This document shows, piece by piece, positions 11,189 to 31,005 of a stretch of DNA of 64,000 bases. A model generated the notes under the pieces. The model was not told the DNA's origin and ran no database searches. It saw only the letters and a program-made list of their open reading frames with translations. This DNA comes from Halapricum desulfuricans (GTDB lineage Archaea > Halobacteriota > Halobacteria > Halobacteriales > Haloarculaceae), in NCBI RefSeq assembly GCF_017094525.1, contig NZ_CP064788.1:1597030-1661029 (forward strand). Direction: 5' to 3'. Both the position numbers and the translations under genes were made by a program. The stretch's first letter is position 1. Each line of letters starts with the position of its first letter.

Positions 11189-11263
11189 CGGGCACGGTGG
11201 GATTCGAACCCACGACCGTCGGATTAGAAGTCCGACGCTCTATCCGGACTGAGCTACGTGCCC
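11189..11263 (-). tRNA. tRNA-Arg (anticodon TCT)
   Basis: A 75-nt cloverleaf reads on the minus strand. It has acceptor GGGCACG / CGTGCCC, D-arm GCTC..GAGC, anticodon arm TCGGA-CTTCTAA-TCCGA with anticodon TCT, and T-arm GTGGG-TTCGAAT-CCCAC. All stems pair without mismatch and there is no intron. It decodes AGA. Confidence 0.97.
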
Positions 11264-22655: not shown

Positions 22656-22778
22656 TAGAAGGCGAAAGGCGGGTGACGGGGTTAGTGGTTTCGGAGCGTG
22701 GGCCGAGACCGGCGCGGACGCCACGCCCGAGGACGGTATCGGGGCGATGGAATCACCCCCGTCCGCAGACATCCTGTC

Positions 22779-22895
22779 CTACTCGCCGTCATCGACGTCG
22801 GGATTTTCGAGTTCGGCTTCGAGTCGCTCGACGCGCTCTTCGAGTTCCGCCAGACCCTCGCTGTCGTTAAGTCCCGACCCGTGCAACGATCGCAT
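22779..22895 (-). CDS. Possible small coiled-coil protein (38 aa)
   Basis: A short ORF begins MRSLHGSGLNDSEG. It continues with a Glu-rich amphipathic helix (LAELEERVERLEAELE) and an acidic end. Codon choice is typical of haloarchaeal genes. Its ATG abuts the start of the divergent bat-type gene (CAT-ATG at 22893-22898), which is unusual. It would lie upstream of rfcL. I have no homology evidence, so it may be chance. Confidence 0.4.
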   Translation of the reverse strand: MRSLHGSGLNDSEGLAELEERVERLEAELENPDVDDGE

Positions 22896-23540
22896 ATGAG
22901 CGTCGTCTGTGAGTTCGAACTCCTGTCGACCGAGTTGCCGCTGACCGGCGTTGCAGCGGCCCTCGAGACGATCCTCACGATCGACGACGTGGTCTCGGGG
23001 ACGGCAGGCGCGCCCGCCGTCGTGTTCTCGACGACCGGTGTCGACCCGAGCCGCCTCGAGGAAGCGATGGACGACGCCGGCCCGGTCCTGGAGCACGTGC
23101 CCCTCGAGTCGACCGTCGTCGAGTCGCGCTACCGGGTCACTCTCGATACGGCACACGCCGACGTCTACACGCGGCTCGTCGACCTGCGGACCCATCCCAT
23201 GGGCGCGGTCGTGACCGGTCGCGGCTGGAAAGTCAGCGCGCAGTTCGCCGACCGGGAGGCGCTGGACGCGTTCCGGACCGCGTGTGGAAACACCGGCGTC
23301 GAGTTCCGGCCACGTCGCGTTTTCGAGGCCGAGATTGACCGGACCGACGACTACGGCCTCACTGCTGCCCAGCACGAGGCGCTGCTCACCGCCCACGAGA
23401 TGGGATACTTCGACGTGCCCCGGGAAGCCGACCTGTCCGACGTCGCCGCGGCACTCGAGACGACGACCTCGGCGCTGTCCGAACGGCTCCGGCGCGGCCA
23501 GCGCCGACTCGTCGGTCACACGGTCGCCAGCGCGGAGTGA
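22896..23540 (+). CDS. Bat-type helix-turn-helix regulator (HTH_10)
   Basis: The 214-residue protein has an N-terminal alpha/beta sensor-like region. A C-terminal bacterio-opsin-activator HTH follows at about residues 152-205, with LTAAQHEALLTAHEMGYFDV followed by LSDVAAALETTTSALSERLRRG. Such regulators are numerous in haloarchaea and usually control neighbouring genes. The oleate hydratase downstream, after a 180-bp gap, is a candidate target. ATG 22896 starts the family N-terminus. Confidence 0.93.
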   Translation: MSVVCEFELLSTELPLTGVAAALETILTIDDVVSGTAGAPAVVFSTTGVDPSRLEEAMDDAGPVLEHVPLESTVVESRYRVTLDTAHADVYTRLVDLRTHPMGAVVTGRGWKVSAQFADREALDAFRTACGNTGVEFRPRRVFEAEIDRTDDYGLTAAQHEALLTAHEMGYFDVPREADLSDVAAALETTTSALSERLRRGQRRLVGHTVASAE

Positions 23541-23615
23541 TTCGCACTGCAAGATTGGACGAGCCTGAACTGCAACACCGGGAGAGTCTGCATGGCCGTG
23601 CGGGTGAGTTTGAAC

Positions 23616-23633
23616 TGCAGGATATATCCTGCA
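23616..23633. promoter_or_regulatory. 18-bp perfect palindrome upstream of oleate hydratase
   Basis: TGCAGGATATATCCTGCA is a perfect inverted repeat with a TATA core. The word TGAACTGCA occurs directly before it and again about 43 bases upstream. It lies in the gap between the bat-type regulator and the hydratase, so it is a reasonable operator candidate. No binding data are implied. Confidence 0.4.
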
Positions 23634-23717
23634 AAGCGTTAGCGCTGCGGCCGGCCTACGTTCCTCTGTGGCGAGACGTCGGGCATACCGTCTGGTCGGC
23701 ACAGAACTGGAGGATCC

Positions 23718-23816
23718 ATGACCACGCTACCACCACCGCAGGCGAGCACAGACCGCGGATCGGAACGCGAGCGCGTCCGGACGACCGCGACGCCGGAGGG
23801 GTCGTATGCCCGTTGA
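23718..23816 (+). CDS. 32-codon ORF overlapping oleate hydratase start (small gene or frameshifted N-terminus)
   Basis: ATG 23718 is preceded by GGAGG at 23709-23713, a good Shine-Dalgarno site. The ORF ends GSYAR then TGA, overlapping the hydratase ATG (23806) by 11 bases. In oleate hydratases the stretch just before the FAD motif often has an aromatic-Ala-Arg-Pro pattern. The ORF's SYAR followed in the other frame by a Pro would fit a broken N-terminus. It may also be an independent leader peptide. Confidence 0.5.
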   Translation: MTTLPPPQASTDRGSERERVRTTATPEGSYAR

Positions 23817-25395
23817 ACAGACGCCGCACGTCGCCGACCGGGAGGCGCACGTCGTCGGCGGCGGAATCGCCGGGCTGGCGGCCGCGGCGTTTCTGATCCG
23901 TGACGGCAACGTGCCCGGCGAGAACGTCCACGTCTACGAGAAACTCGACGTCGTCGGCGGGGCGATGGACGGCGCGGGCGACCCCGAGGAGGGGTACGTC
24001 ATCCGGGGCGGGCGGATGTTCAACTTCCCCGCTTACGAGTGTACCTGGGACCTCTTTCGGACGATCCCCGCCCTGGAGGACGACAGCATCTCGGTCAAAG
24101 AGGAGATGAACCGGTTCAACGAGAAACACCCGTCCTACGCGGAGGCGCGACTGATCGAGGACGGCAGGCATCTCGACGCCTCCCAGTTCCAGCTGGAGAC
24201 CCGCCACCGGATCTCGTTGCTCCGGTTGCTGCTCACGCCCGAGGAGCGACTCGGGGACACCCGGATCGAGGAGTGGTTCGGCGACGACTTCTTCGAGACG
24301 AATTTCTGGTACGTGTGGGCGACGATCTTCGCCTTCCAGCCCTGGCACAGCGTCGCCGAGGTCCGGCGGTACATGTACCGGTTCCTCCACGAGTTCCCCC
24401 GACTGCACACGATGGAGGGGATCGACCGGACCAAGTACAACCAGTACGACTCGATGATCCTGCCGTTGCGACGGTGGCTCGAGGACCGTGGCGTCGACTT
24501 CCAGTACGACTGTCGCGTCACCGACATGGATATCGTGACCTCGCGAGCGGGCCGGACCGTCGAACGACTCCATTGCGAGATCGACGGCGGAACCGAGCGC
24601 ATCGGGGTCGAGCCCACGGATATGGTCTTTTTCACCAACGGCTCGATGACCGACGGGTCGGACCTCGGCGCGTGGGACGAGGCTCCCGAGACGAACGAGA
24701 CCGGCGCGTCCTGGGAGCTGTGGCGGGAAATCGCCGCGGACAACCCCGGATTCGGCGACCCCGAGGTTTTCGCCGGCAACGTTCAGGAGACCAAATGGGA
24801 GTCGTTCACCGTCACGTTGCACAACACGGACCTGTTCGAACACATCGTCGAGTTCACCGACGAGGAGCCCGGCAACGGGCTGGTGACCTACGTCGACTCG
24901 TCCTGGCTCATGTCAACGGTCGTCGCTGCGCAACCGCACTTCGCGAACCAGCCCGACGACGTGAAGATCTTCTGGGGGTACGCCCTGTTCCCGGACCGGG
25001 AGGGCGACTACGTCGAGAAGAAGATGTCCGAGTGCACCGGCCGGGAGATCCTCGAAGAGCTGTGCTATCACCTCCAGTGCGCGGACCGATTGCCGGAGAT
25101 TCTGGAGGGCGTCGACTGCGTGCCGTGCATGATGCCGTTCATCACGGCTCATTTCCAGCCCCGGACATCTGGCGACCGACCGGCAGTCGTCCCCGACAGC
25201 TCGCGCAACCTGGCGTTCCTCGGACAGTACGCCGACCTCCCGCGCGATGTCGTGTTCACCGTCGAGTACTCCATCCGGACGGCGATGACCGCGGTCTACG
25301 AGTTACTCGACCTCGATCAAGAGATTCCGCCGGTGAGCAAACACTACCGCAAGCCGGGGGTCCTCGCCGACGCGGTCTCGGCGTCGTTCGAGTAG
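23806..25395 (+). CDS. ohyA: Oleate hydratase / myosin-cross-reactive antigen family
   Basis: The 529-residue FAD protein has the dinucleotide motif VVGGGIAGLAAA at about residues 16-27. Other family blocks are FLIRDGNVPGEN, DGAGDPEEGYVIRGGR, FAFQPWHS, KYNQYD and CHLxxxDRLPEI-like segments. Oleate hydratases add water to the cis-9 double bond of unsaturated fatty acids. Many members have Glu after RGGR; here it is Met (M71), as I recall for a monomeric Rhodococcus-type subgroup. The tyrosine of the KYNQYD block is kept. GGAGGGG lies just upstream of ATG 23806. Fatty acids are not the bulk lipids of archaea, so the substrate is uncertain. Confidence 0.9.
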   Translation: MPVEQTPHVADREAHVVGGGIAGLAAAAFLIRDGNVPGENVHVYEKLDVVGGAMDGAGDPEEGYVIRGGRMFNFPAYECTWDLFRTIPALEDDSISVKEEMNRFNEKHPSYAEARLIEDGRHLDASQFQLETRHRISLLRLLLTPEERLGDTRIEEWFGDDFFETNFWYVWATIFAFQPWHSVAEVRRYMYRFLHEFPRLHTMEGIDRTKYNQYDSMILPLRRWLEDRGVDFQYDCRVTDMDIVTSRAGRTVERLHCEIDGGTERIGVEPTDMVFFTNGSMTDGSDLGAWDEAPETNETGASWELWREIAADNPGFGDPEVFAGNVQETKWESFTVTLHNTDLFEHIVEFTDEEPGNGLVTYVDSSWLMSTVVAAQPHFANQPDDVKIFWGYALFPDREGDYVEKKMSECTGREILEELCYHLQCADRLPEILEGVDCVPCMMPFITAHFQPRTSGDRPAVVPDSSRNLAFLGQYADLPRDVVFTVEYSIRTAMTAVYELLDLDQEIPPVSKHYRKPGVLADAVSASFE

Positions 25396-25647
25396 CCCCA
25401 ACATCGACAAGGGCGTATTAATCCCCGACCACCGGATGTCGAACACCGCTCGTGGGCCATAGCGAACGAGAGCCGCCCCCGAAGTGATGTCTCGCCCCAC
25501 AGTGAACAACCCCGCCACGGCAACGGCGGAGTCTCGGCCGGCCAGAACACCCCTGCGAGGAACCCGAAAAGTCAAATGCAGTACTATAAACCAAGAATGA
25601 TAATTCCGTCACAGAGCCGTGGTCTCGCGTCTCACACGGCCGACCTC
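25396..25647. other. Intergenic region upstream of rRNA operon
   Basis: There is no convincing gene between the hydratase stop and the main rRNA promoter. CAGTACTATAAACC at about 25578-25591 looks like a TATA element and may be an additional upstream rRNA promoter. ORFs here are Arg-rich and out of context. Confidence 0.5.
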
Positions 25648-25670
25648 TTCGACGGGTTTTTGTATACCCC
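25648..25670 (+). promoter_or_regulatory. rRNA operon promoter
   Basis: TTCGACGG followed by GTTTTTGTATACCCC matches the TTCGA-plus-TATA layout known for haloarchaeal rRNA promoters. Transcription would start about 25 bases further on, near 25685-25690, leaving a ~290-nt leader before 16S. Confidence 0.75.
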
Positions 25671-25739
25671 TCTCCTTGGATGGAATGCACACGGCAGGTG
25701 GCGGACGGCGGCCTCGGTCGCCACGCCACCGGAACTCTA

Positions 25740-25817
25740 GACGGGGTTTCTCCCGTCGATGATGACGATGTCGGGGGCGTTGCTCTGCAACGCCCTGGAT
25801 CGCCGCAGTGGCGATCC
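25740..25817 (+). other. Three tandem hairpins in the pre-rRNA leader
   Basis: GACGGG/CCCGTC (25740-25757), GGGCGTTGC/GCAACGCCC (25775-25795) and GGATCGCC/GGCGATCC (25797-25817) form three back-to-back perfect stems of 6, 9 and 8 bp. They lie between the promoter and the 16S processing stem. They may shield the leader or act in rRNA antitermination or processing; this is inference. Confidence 0.6.
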
Positions 25818-25871
25818 CCGAAAGATGAGGAGTCCACACCTGCGGGTCGCACCGTACAGATGGGTTCTGAT

Positions 25872-25885
25872 GTGAGCCCTGACAG
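25872..25885 (+). other. 16S processing stem, 5' arm
   Basis: GTGAGCCCTGACAG is the exact complement of 27539-27552 downstream of 16S. Pairing continues inward with G-U wobbles. Such long stems with a bulge-helix-bulge are cut by the archaeal splicing endonuclease to release pre-16S. Confidence 0.8.
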
Positions 25886-25979
25886 TTCGGTGATGAATCG
25901 TCGATCGTATCGACGTCGCATCATCGAATGACGGACAGAGACATAGCGTGTCTCCGCCAGACCCAACCGATTGGGAAAC

Positions 25980-27448
<1,469 letters not shown>

Positions 27449-27538
27449 AACGATCGGGACTGGGACGACGTCCCAGCCCACATTTCCTGCCACCGCGGCA
27501 GGACCTGGTGATCGGCGGCCGTTTCGGTCGCCGCCGAG

Positions 27539-27552
27539 CTGTCAGGGCTCAC
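27539..27552 (+). other. 16S processing stem, 3' arm
   Basis: CTGTCAGGGCTCAC pairs perfectly with 25872-25885. It lies about 90 bases after the 16S 3' end and 18 bases before the tRNA-like sequence. Confidence 0.8.
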
Positions 27553-27569
27553 GCCCCTCGTGAGAGGGA

Positions 27570-27634
27570 GACCGGTAGCTCAGTGGCAGAGCACCACCTC
27601 GTGTGGTTACCCCGGTTCGATTCCGGGTCGGTCA
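27570..27634 (+). pseudogene. tRNA-like sequence in the 16S-23S spacer lacking a normal anticodon arm
   Basis: At the place where archaeal rRNA operons usually carry tRNA-Ala, a 65-nt sequence has a tRNA acceptor pairing (GACCGG with TCGGTC), a D-arm GCTC-AGTGGCA-GAGC and a perfect T-arm CCCGG-TTCGATT-CCGGG. Only 18 nt separate the D-arm and T-arm, where about 23 are needed. They fold as ACCAC-CTCGT-GTGGT, so no 7-nt anticodon loop forms. It looks like a tRNA that lost ~5 nt of its anticodon arm, or a sequence error, or a tRNA-like processing signal. Confidence 0.6.
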
Positions 27635-27736
27635 CTCCCGCGGGCGATCGCGCCCGCACCAACCGATGCACCACCCCGCGGCAAGCGCGGGTGGGAAGGG
27701 TTGATACACGCACCGCTCACCCCGGGCGTGTAGATG

Positions 27737-27780
27737 ACACCGCGTGTACGTGCAATCCAGACGTCAACTGGACCCGTTTC
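27737..27780 (+). other. 23S processing stem, 5' arm
   Basis: Two blocks pair with the region after 23S. 27737-27760 (24 nt, starting ACACCGCGTG) is the exact complement of 30811-30834. 27768-27780 (CTGGACCCGTTTC) is the exact complement of 30791-30803. The unpaired bases between the blocks give the bulged motif needed for splicing-endonuclease cleavage. Confidence 0.85.
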
Positions 27781-27835
27781 ATCAGAAACGTGTGTCCGAC
27801 TATCCGGAGCTGAGCTTCGCTCAGCTTCGTATCGA

Positions 27836-30765
<2,930 letters not shown>

Positions 30766-30790
30766 CCATTCATACTGGACGCACGATCCG

Positions 30791-30834
30791 GAAACGGGTC
30801 CAGGCGGAAACTGGATTGCACGTACACGCGGTGT
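30791..30834 (+). other. 23S processing stem, 3' arm
   Basis: GAAACGGGTCCAG (30791-30803) and the 24-nt block at 30811-30834 pair perfectly with the upstream arm at 27737-27780. Confidence 0.85.
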
Positions 30835-30840
30835 CCACCA

Positions 30841-30882
30841 CCGACGATTGGCATGACGACGGTTCGATTCCGTCGGTCGGCG
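30841..30882 (+). other. T-arm/acceptor-like minihelix in the 23S-5S spacer
   Basis: CCGAC ... GACGG-TTCGATT-CCGTC-GGTCGG reproduces a tRNA T-arm with its 7-base TTCGATT loop and a partly paired acceptor-like stem. The rest of a tRNA is missing. It may be the remnant of a spacer tRNA or a processing signal recognised by tRNA enzymes. Confidence 0.5.
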
Positions 30883-31005
30883 TTAAGGCGGCCACAGCGG
30901 CGGGGCAACTCCCGTACCCATCCCGAACACGGCAGATAAGCCCGCCTGCGTTCCGGCGAGTACTGGAGTGCGCGAGCCTCTGGGAAAGCCGGTTCGCCGC
31001 CTCCC
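30883..31005 (+). rRNA. rrf: 5S ribosomal RNA
   Basis: TTAAGGCGGCCACAGCGG to GGTTCGCCGCCTCCC gives 123 nt. The terminal helix GGCGG/CCGCC, the CCCATCCCGAACACGG loop and the GTACTGGAGTGCGCGAGCC block are all present. Confidence 0.97.

Follow-up and report, generated by a model that had tools for sequence, protein, structure and literature searches.

We analysed a stretch of 64,000 nucleotides, hereafter the window, from the 2.89 Mb, single-contig genome of the haloarchaeon Halapricum desulfuricans, in which a gene for an oleate hydratase lies downstream of a gene for a Bat-like regulator. A proposed operator is found between the two genes, and a 32-codon open reading frame (ORF) overlaps the start of the hydratase gene (Table 1). 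The hydratase frame encodes 529 residues, and matched PF06100 (MCRA) with 699.5 bits over residues 12-498 (Pfam; cut-off 23) and the NCBIfam oleate hydratase equivalog NF010584 with 742 bits (cut-off 567). The full-length family models for oleate hydratase/MCRA (EC 4.2.1.53) were thus matched above their curated cut-offs, which bore out the suggestion, made earlier from the letters alone (the sequence-only reading), that this haloarchaeon encodes an oleate hydratase. The protein contains the flavin adenine dinucleotide (FAD)-binding motif GGGIAGL at residue 18, a lid with GGAMDG (GGXXXG) at residue 51 and the catalytic loop RGGRM at residue 67, and both Tyr189 and Arg70 were invariant in the two hydratase alignments that we built (30 and 33 rows). 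Its composition is acidic, with 94 Asp and Glu residues against 46 Lys and Arg residues. The AlphaFold model, computed with 33 aligned sequences, had a mean predicted local distance difference test (pLDDT) score of 91.7 and a predicted template modelling (pTM) score of 0.92, and residues 1-4 formed the sole segment with a pLDDT below 50. A Foldseek search with this model returned only oleate or fatty-acid hydratase chains at ranks 1-29, with template modelling (TM) scores, taken by the query, of 0.90-0.96 and of 0.79 for one chain, following which the TM score dropped to 0.42. The solved relatives are oleate hydratases from Elizabethkingia, Staphylococcus, Lactobacillus, Stenotrophomonas and Rhodococcus. 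Taken together, as judged from family models and predicted fold, the gene is an intact oleate hydratase of a known family.

Table 1. Positions of the genes, motifs and compared stretches at the hydratase locus, numbered from the first letter of the window.
Feature	Position	Strand	Basis or remark
Oleate hydratase, 529 residues, Met-type (clade II-like), FAD-dependent family	23806..25395	+	Family models, AlphaFold, Foldseek
GGAGG ahead of the hydratase ATG	23795..23799	+	Sequence; 19 of 40 loci, counting the window, have one in this position range
Catalytic loop RGGRM, Arg67-Met71	24004..24018	+	Alignments; Met71 at the clade I Glu position (E82, S. aureus OhyA)
Tyr189 codon	24370..24372	+	Matches the conserved Tyr of the active site (Y201 in S. 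aureus, number derived from alignment offsets)
32-codon upstream ORF	23718..23816	+	11-base overlap with the hydratase start; peptide probably not selected
GGAGG ahead of the 32-codon ORF	23709..23713	+	Sequence
Bat-like regulator with C-terminal HTH_10 domain, 214 residues	22896..23540	+	Start inferred: most homologues match from residue 1
Promoter motif AGGATATATCCTGCAAAGCGTTAG, proposed operator	23619..23642	+	Between regulator and hydratase
Block common to H. hydrolyticum (G002): regulator-hydratase pair	22868..25457		93.7% identity; other surroundings there
Stretch deleted from G001, which belongs to the same genus	23230..25261		Regulator start and hydratase end remain there

To place the gene among its relatives, we surveyed 391 genomes of the class. 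Forty-one of these scored over the Pfam cut-off, and two (G043 and G400) were dropped as sums of weak pieces, leaving 39 carriers with 40 genes; the 40-locus set used below combines the window's locus with the 39 found in the other 38 carriers. The sequence-only reading had proposed that the N-terminus is frameshifted, with the 32-codon ORF as the true beginning of the protein, joined to the hydratase frame by frameshifting or split from it by a sequencing error near 23800-23820. The small ORF indeed overlaps the hydratase start, and it carries the Shine-Dalgarno-like motif of its own that had been reported for it. Within the hydratase frame, the ATG at 23806 is the first possible start (ATG, GTG or TTG) after a stop codon at 23719-23721. 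A sister locus, whose protein is 98% identical, has the same two frames and the same two stops, and its 88 bases before the start align to those of the window with zero indels. All 40 loci have an ATG close to the position that corresponds to 23806, as picked out by a script that chose the ATG closest to the expected start; in 14 of them, just two codons lie between this ATG and an in-frame stop. The deposited annotation of the Natribaculum luteum protein (88.5% identical) starts at the same place, and the first Rossmann strand of the predicted model is seen at residues 14-17. Since the sister locus, the starts across the 40 loci, the annotated start and the first strand of the model all agree, the frameshift is refuted, and we consider a split or shifted N-terminus to have next to no chance of being correct. 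Homologues do not carry the upstream frame within one protein, and both a programmed frameshift and a sequencing error were ruled out. Nor does the final Arg of the small ORF continue into the Pro of the hydratase, as had been thought, because its codon CGT (23811-23813) belongs to the other frame and overlaps Pro2 (CCC, 23809-23811) and Val3 (GTT, 23812-23814) of the hydratase. The sequence-only reading had named two findings that would count against it, namely homologues that begin at the equivalent of ATG 23806 and a small ORF that is not conserved; the first was seen throughout, while the second holds by half, the place of the small ORF being kept in the nearest relatives and its peptide not.

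The small ORF could still matter if it were translated and coupled the hydratase to itself by termination and reinitiation, with its peptide sequence irrelevant. An ATG-started ORF overlaps the hydratase start in 35 of the 40 loci and is absent in five, with overlaps of 4, 8, 11 or 32 bases. Up to the hydratase ATG, the small ORF (88 bases) aligns without gaps in seven of the nearest rows (the window, L066, L085, L078, L080, L083 and L084), one 3-base gap is found in L051, and the ATG of the small ORF is kept in 6 of the 8 nearest rows. Precedent is available as well, since strict coupling was reported for 13 of 14 overlapping gene pairs, nine from Haloferax volcanii and five from E. coli (PMC6728339). 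Chance, however, readily produces such ORFs: when the 300 upstream bases of the window were shuffled with dinucleotides preserved, 51% of the shuffles contained an overlapping ORF of at least 19 codons and 43% contained one of at least 30, and across loci the proportion for at least 19 codons was 18-65% per locus. The small ORF by itself is therefore unremarkable. An overlapping ORF of at least 19 codons was seen in 16/16 loci tested against 5.7 expected, in loci that were hand-chosen, related and non-independent. The ATGA overlap arises automatically whenever the second hydratase codon starts with A, and the leader ATG at -56 in Haloarcula-type loci sits within the conserved promoter motif and is probably upstream of the transcript.

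Selection on the peptide was examined with a home-made, RNAcode-like test in which codon substitutions are compared with those in shuffled alignment columns; the sequences are short and related, and weak selection would escape it. No amino-acid-level selection was detected on the small ORF in the six nearest sequences (p = 0.45), in three of these (0.31), in four carrying a longer version (0.57), in the extension alone (0.40), in three sequences of the next clade (0.84) or in nine Natrinema-type sequences (0.70), and no frame of any subset fell below p 0.11 (six subsets from three groups, Haloarcula-type leaders not being among those tested). In contrast, hydratase stretches of similar length from the same loci gave 0/2000 in each of four controls, and we therefore rejected a conserved leader peptide, and with it the conserved coupled peptide that the sequence-only reading had allowed for. 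The codon signature of haloarchaeal genes was also absent from the small ORF, with a G+C content by codon position of 0.66/0.72/0.75, as against 0.64/0.41/0.90 for the hydratase and 0.73/0.49/0.87 for the regulator. The leader at 23640-23820 did not behave as a structured RNA, as it folded less stably than shuffled sequences (z 1.39; 189 of the 200 shuffled versions matched or exceeded its stability), and no Rfam family reached its gathering score there. The small ORF is thus probably not a selected peptide, as far as alignments can tell. Coupling is possible but unneeded, because the hydratase has a GGAGG of its own, and we regard it as rather unlikely. The small ORF would then be incidental to the leader and its Shine-Dalgarno-like motif, and would at most tune initiation.

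The Met that follows RGGR had been noted as a departure from the usual Glu. The loop does read RGGRM, but the residue is not odd: Met follows GGR in 40/40 haloarchaeal proteins, 39 of which have the full RGGR, and it is in print for other branches of the family. Met occupied this position in 7 of 9 bacterial proteins hand-picked from 205 plasmid records, and in 28 of the 33 rows of a named set, the remaining five having Glu. About 30% of database sequences, mostly HFam1, are reported to have Met there, and the M77E substitution in a Met-bearing Rhodococcus enzyme to cut activity five-fold (PMC8403116); the Met is described as strictly conserved throughout HFam3 (PMC8994360). Clade II enzymes of the Bacillales are described as lacking both the Glu and the C-terminal membrane domain, and clade I enzymes as about 590 residues long (PMC11669549). 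The window's protein departs from clade I and the Glu-type families HFam2-HFam11 in having Met71 and in its length of 529 residues, and from HFam3 (ReOhy-like), with which it shares the Met, in its short lid with GGXXXG. It agrees with clade II in lacking the Glu, in its length of about 530 residues, in having no C-terminal membrane domain and in grouping with Paenibacillus apart from Glu-type proteins. Because of the Met, the shorter length and the short GGXXXG lid, the haloarchaeal enzymes resemble clade II and not HFam3 proper. On these alignments, Met71 is the norm of a whole branch common to haloarchaea and bacteria, and the leads offered by an odd residue and by a frameshift are both closed.

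We built two trees to follow the history of this branch, the first with 21 of the 40 haloarchaeal proteins and nine chosen bacterial ones, and the second with 39 rows (18 haloarchaeal and 21 bacterial). The haloarchaeal proteins formed one group in both, with support of 94/94 and 97% of bootstrap trees in the first and 100/100 in the second. The fork between haloarchaea and Met-type bacteria stayed open in the first tree; in the second, a 100/100 branch parted Met-type rows (haloarchaea, Paenibacillus and other bacteria) from Glu-type rows, with the order inside the Met-type set and the root left open. Proteins of Natribaculum and Natrinema limicola, both Natrialbaceae, clustered with those of Halapricum (Haloarculaceae) at 100/99. 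Because proteins of the two families group so firmly, the trees suggest one entry into haloarchaea followed by exchange between families. The nearest named bacteria, from Paenibacillus and Thermoanaerobacterium, are 51-53% identical to the window's protein (among the best 80 of 173 relatives), and large plasmids carry hydratase copies in Natribaculum and Natrinema. Two individual genomes may be mentioned here. The hydratase of L072 (G142) has a shifted C-terminus, with 524 residues and an unrelated tail, perhaps owing to a recent frameshift or an error. Another genome (G248) holds two hydratases (L051 and L085), 86% and 84% identical to the window's, with a regulator upstream of one only.

The gene upstream of the hydratase encodes a Bat-like protein, and both of its domains passed their cut-offs on the longer ORF at 22698-23540 (HTH_10, 54.0 bits, cut-off 23.1; BAT, 28.8 bits, cut-off 25.8). 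In 22 of the 40 loci, the hydratase is preceded on its own strand by a regulator homologue 54-93% identical to that of the window. The first part of the promoter motif falls within a perfect 16-base palindrome (23617-23632). The palindrome occurs once in the genome (exact AGGATATATCCT), and the 24-base pattern AGGATATATCCTGCAAANNGTTAG, with up to three mismatches, likewise had a single match; no other target that would make up a regulon was found, the pattern being confined to the hydratase promoter within this genome. Hydratase genes of related genera are preceded by close copies of the motif, which in several come right after a TATA-like stretch. Compared with shuffles, the motif reached p ≤ 0.01 in 21 of the 22 loci with an upstream regulator and in 4 of the 18 without, p values that are optimistic because the consensus was drawn from some of the scored loci and many of these are close kin. 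In one locus (L049, G025), a regulator homologue (47%) is found downstream of the hydratase, and the promoter motif is still perfect. We met no regulator of an oleate hydratase among the literature matches listed, in a literature of partial coverage. The regulator pair with its putative operator, which had escaped the sequence-only reading, is a modest new observation and, if confirmed, would offer haloarchaeal genetics a single-site, fatty-acid-responsive promoter.

Comparison within the genus showed how the pair is gained and lost. The hydratase is present in 2 of the 6 genomes of the window's genus, with a remnant in one. The pair in H. hydrolyticum (G002) has different surroundings, and the 13.5 kb around it showed neither an rRNA match nor a convincing match to RfcL; a further 86-base match (window 22779-22864, 82.6%) lies about 390 bases further upstream there. 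In G001, the sequences flanking the deletion are 94-97% identical to the window. G003 and G005 lack a hydratase, and their best regulator matches are distant (37% and 30% identical). The changed surroundings in G002, the deletion in G001 and the absence from G003 and G005 indicate that the two genes come and go together in the genus. By eye, an inverted repeat (TACTGCCGGCTGTA / TACAGCCGGCAGTA, about 80 bases apart) resembling a small transposable element was seen just before the regulator in G002 (L066), and the scar that separates what is left of regulator and hydratase in G001 (L086, 6931-6944) has 14 junction bases that do not align to the window.

We favour the reading, with a probability of roughly 0.7, that the locus holds an intact Met-type hydratase, laterally spread and accompanied by its own Bat-like HTH_10 regulator, which mainly blunts foreign fatty acids. 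The regulator would bind the promoter motif and turn on the hydratase in response to unsaturated fatty acids entering the cell. The FAD-dependent hydratase would hydrate its substrates at the cis-9 double bond, yielding 10-hydroxy fatty acids, and Met71 would occupy the place of the clade I Glu, as in HFam3 and clade II enzymes; the main purpose of the enzyme would be to blunt membrane-active fatty acids from other organisms and not to feed beta-oxidation. By analogy with the Staphylococcus hydratase, whose described role is detoxification of unsaturated fatty acids (PMC11669549), detoxification of such acids from the environment appears the likeliest role of the haloarchaeal enzyme. Among bacterial relatives (the L091, L092 and L096 set, on plasmids of Paraburkholderia, Variovorax and Lactococcus), universal stress protein genes lie near two Met-type hydratases, and genes for stress-response membrane proteins lie beside a Glu-type hydratase on the Lactococcus plasmid, neighbours that are in keeping with a stress role. 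Several observations weigh against our reading. Eighteen of the 40 loci have no upstream regulator, and those of Natrinema type also lack the motif, so not all hydratases are paired in this way; L048 has a regulator but a weak motif (p 0.03), and the optimistic p values given above belong here too. Toxicity of fatty acids to these cells is assumed, and nothing pertinent on oleic acid toxicity in haloarchaea stood among the literature matches listed. At least six matches to PF00441 (acyl-CoA dehydrogenase) were found in 32 of the 39 carriers, where catabolic use is open, and 3-hydroxyacyl-CoA dehydrogenase domains occurred in 13/13 genomes tested, those without PF00441 included, so that parts of a beta-oxidation pathway remain.

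These last counts would suit a hydratase that makes scavenged unsaturated fatty acids ready for storage or for breakdown by beta-oxidation. PF00441 was matched in 373 of the 391 genomes of the class and in 9 of 14 control genomes, Haloferax volcanii included (about nine candidates were scored per genome), and Natronomonas pharaonis given oleic acid is reported to make wax esters (PMC11948995). Against a catabolic role, 4 of the 39 carriers had no PF00441 match and three more, the window's genome among them, had one; the four, all the carriers of one genus (g2; G177 is Halorhabdus salina), had zero matches to this model, other acyl-CoA dehydrogenase models not having been searched. A genome of the window's genus without hydratase had 8 matches against the one in the window's genome. 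By eye, and with no association claimed, at most one match was seen in 7 of 39 carriers and 25 of 352 non-carriers. With zero or one PF00441 match in those carriers, the hydratase is probably independent of standard beta-oxidation there, if gene content is a guide. A Pfam scan of nine of the ten recurrent neighbour clusters also found no beta-oxidation enzyme: they encode a transducer, a CNNM/CorC protein, an acetyltransferase, a glycine betaine binding protein, TmcA, a beta-carotene dioxygenase, an amine-oxidase-like flavoprotein, a histidine kinase and superoxide dismutase. We therefore hold a mainly catabolic role to be improbable. Haloarchaeal membranes are isoprenoid, and the sequence-only reading had concluded that the substrate is either something other than a fatty acid or a scavenged one. 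An isoprenoid or other non-fatty-acid substrate might also fit a 2021 review, which reports no successful expression of archaeal or fungal members up to that year (PMC8403116). Sequence and model, however, match fatty-acid hydratases over the whole length, the active-site Tyr and the RGGR loop are retained, and no other kind of protein stood among the 29 best structural matches, which makes such a substrate very unlikely. The step from isoprenoid lipids to another substrate is not supported either: incubation of a haloarchaeon with oleic acid is on record, and Natronomonas is reported to grow on long-chain fatty acids (PMC11948995); of the scavenging proposal, action on fatty acids from outside is plausible. 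No biochemical test of an archaeal hydratase after 2021 was found in the literature searched, with partial coverage, and an archaeal oleate hydratase looks biochemically untried.

Returning to the defensive reading, a stronger form would join all the parts into a self-contained fatty-acid response cassette of single-site operator, Met-type hydratase and an HTH_10 regulator that would sense unsaturated fatty acids or the damage they do. Its parts would be spread and lost together, and it would defend the cell against fatty acids of bacteria or algae. We put this forward tentatively, as less probable than not. If true, such a cassette would operate in cells without membrane fatty acids, some of them perhaps without acyl-CoA dehydrogenase. 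The question raised is why ether-linked isoprenoid membranes coexist with a fatty-acid hydratase, in some genomes without detectable PF00441.

Downstream of the hydratase, a ribosomal RNA (rRNA) operon on the + strand (25980-31005; 16S 25980-27448, 23S 27831-30771, 5S 30884-31005) starts 585 bases past the hydratase stop. Small ORFs within the rRNA stretch from 25980 were rejected as genes, and no family match was found for five ORFs between 25921 and 29601, for the antisense ORF at 22779-23702 or for the ORF at 25418-25981. Haloarchaea usually have a gene for tRNA-Ala in the 16S-23S spacer; no transfer RNA (tRNA) gene was found in this one, and the sole tRNA gene detected in the window is that for tRNA-Arg (anticodon tct; 11189-11263, - strand).

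An annotated oleate hydratase in a haloarchaeon is already in print as HVO_B0149 of Haloferax volcanii, known here as a row of a transcript table that is down-regulated on endA repression (PMC7714728), and compared by annotation only. The closest resemblance is to the clade II OhyA of Bacillales (Paenibacillus, Listeria), which is described as having a Met-type loop, about 530 residues and no C-terminal membrane-binding domain (PMC11669549); the identity to the Paenibacillus proteins and the common side of the 100/100 branch add to this likeness. The haloarchaeal enzymes differ in forming a group of their own, and that of the window also in its acidic make-up and in having its own regulator and promoter motif. 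ReOhy of Rhodococcus erythropolis (HFam3, 5ODO) shares the Met at the Glu position (M77), a short C-terminal part and the fold (TM 0.91), but its lid is reported to have 25-27 residues with GXXXG (PMC8994360), whereas the haloarchaeal lid is short with GGXXXG. The clade I OhyA of S. aureus (7KAW) is alike in its whole fold (TM 0.93-0.95) and in the active-site Arg and Tyr; unlike it, the window's protein, 40-41% identical, has Met in place of Glu82 and no C-terminal membrane-binding domain.

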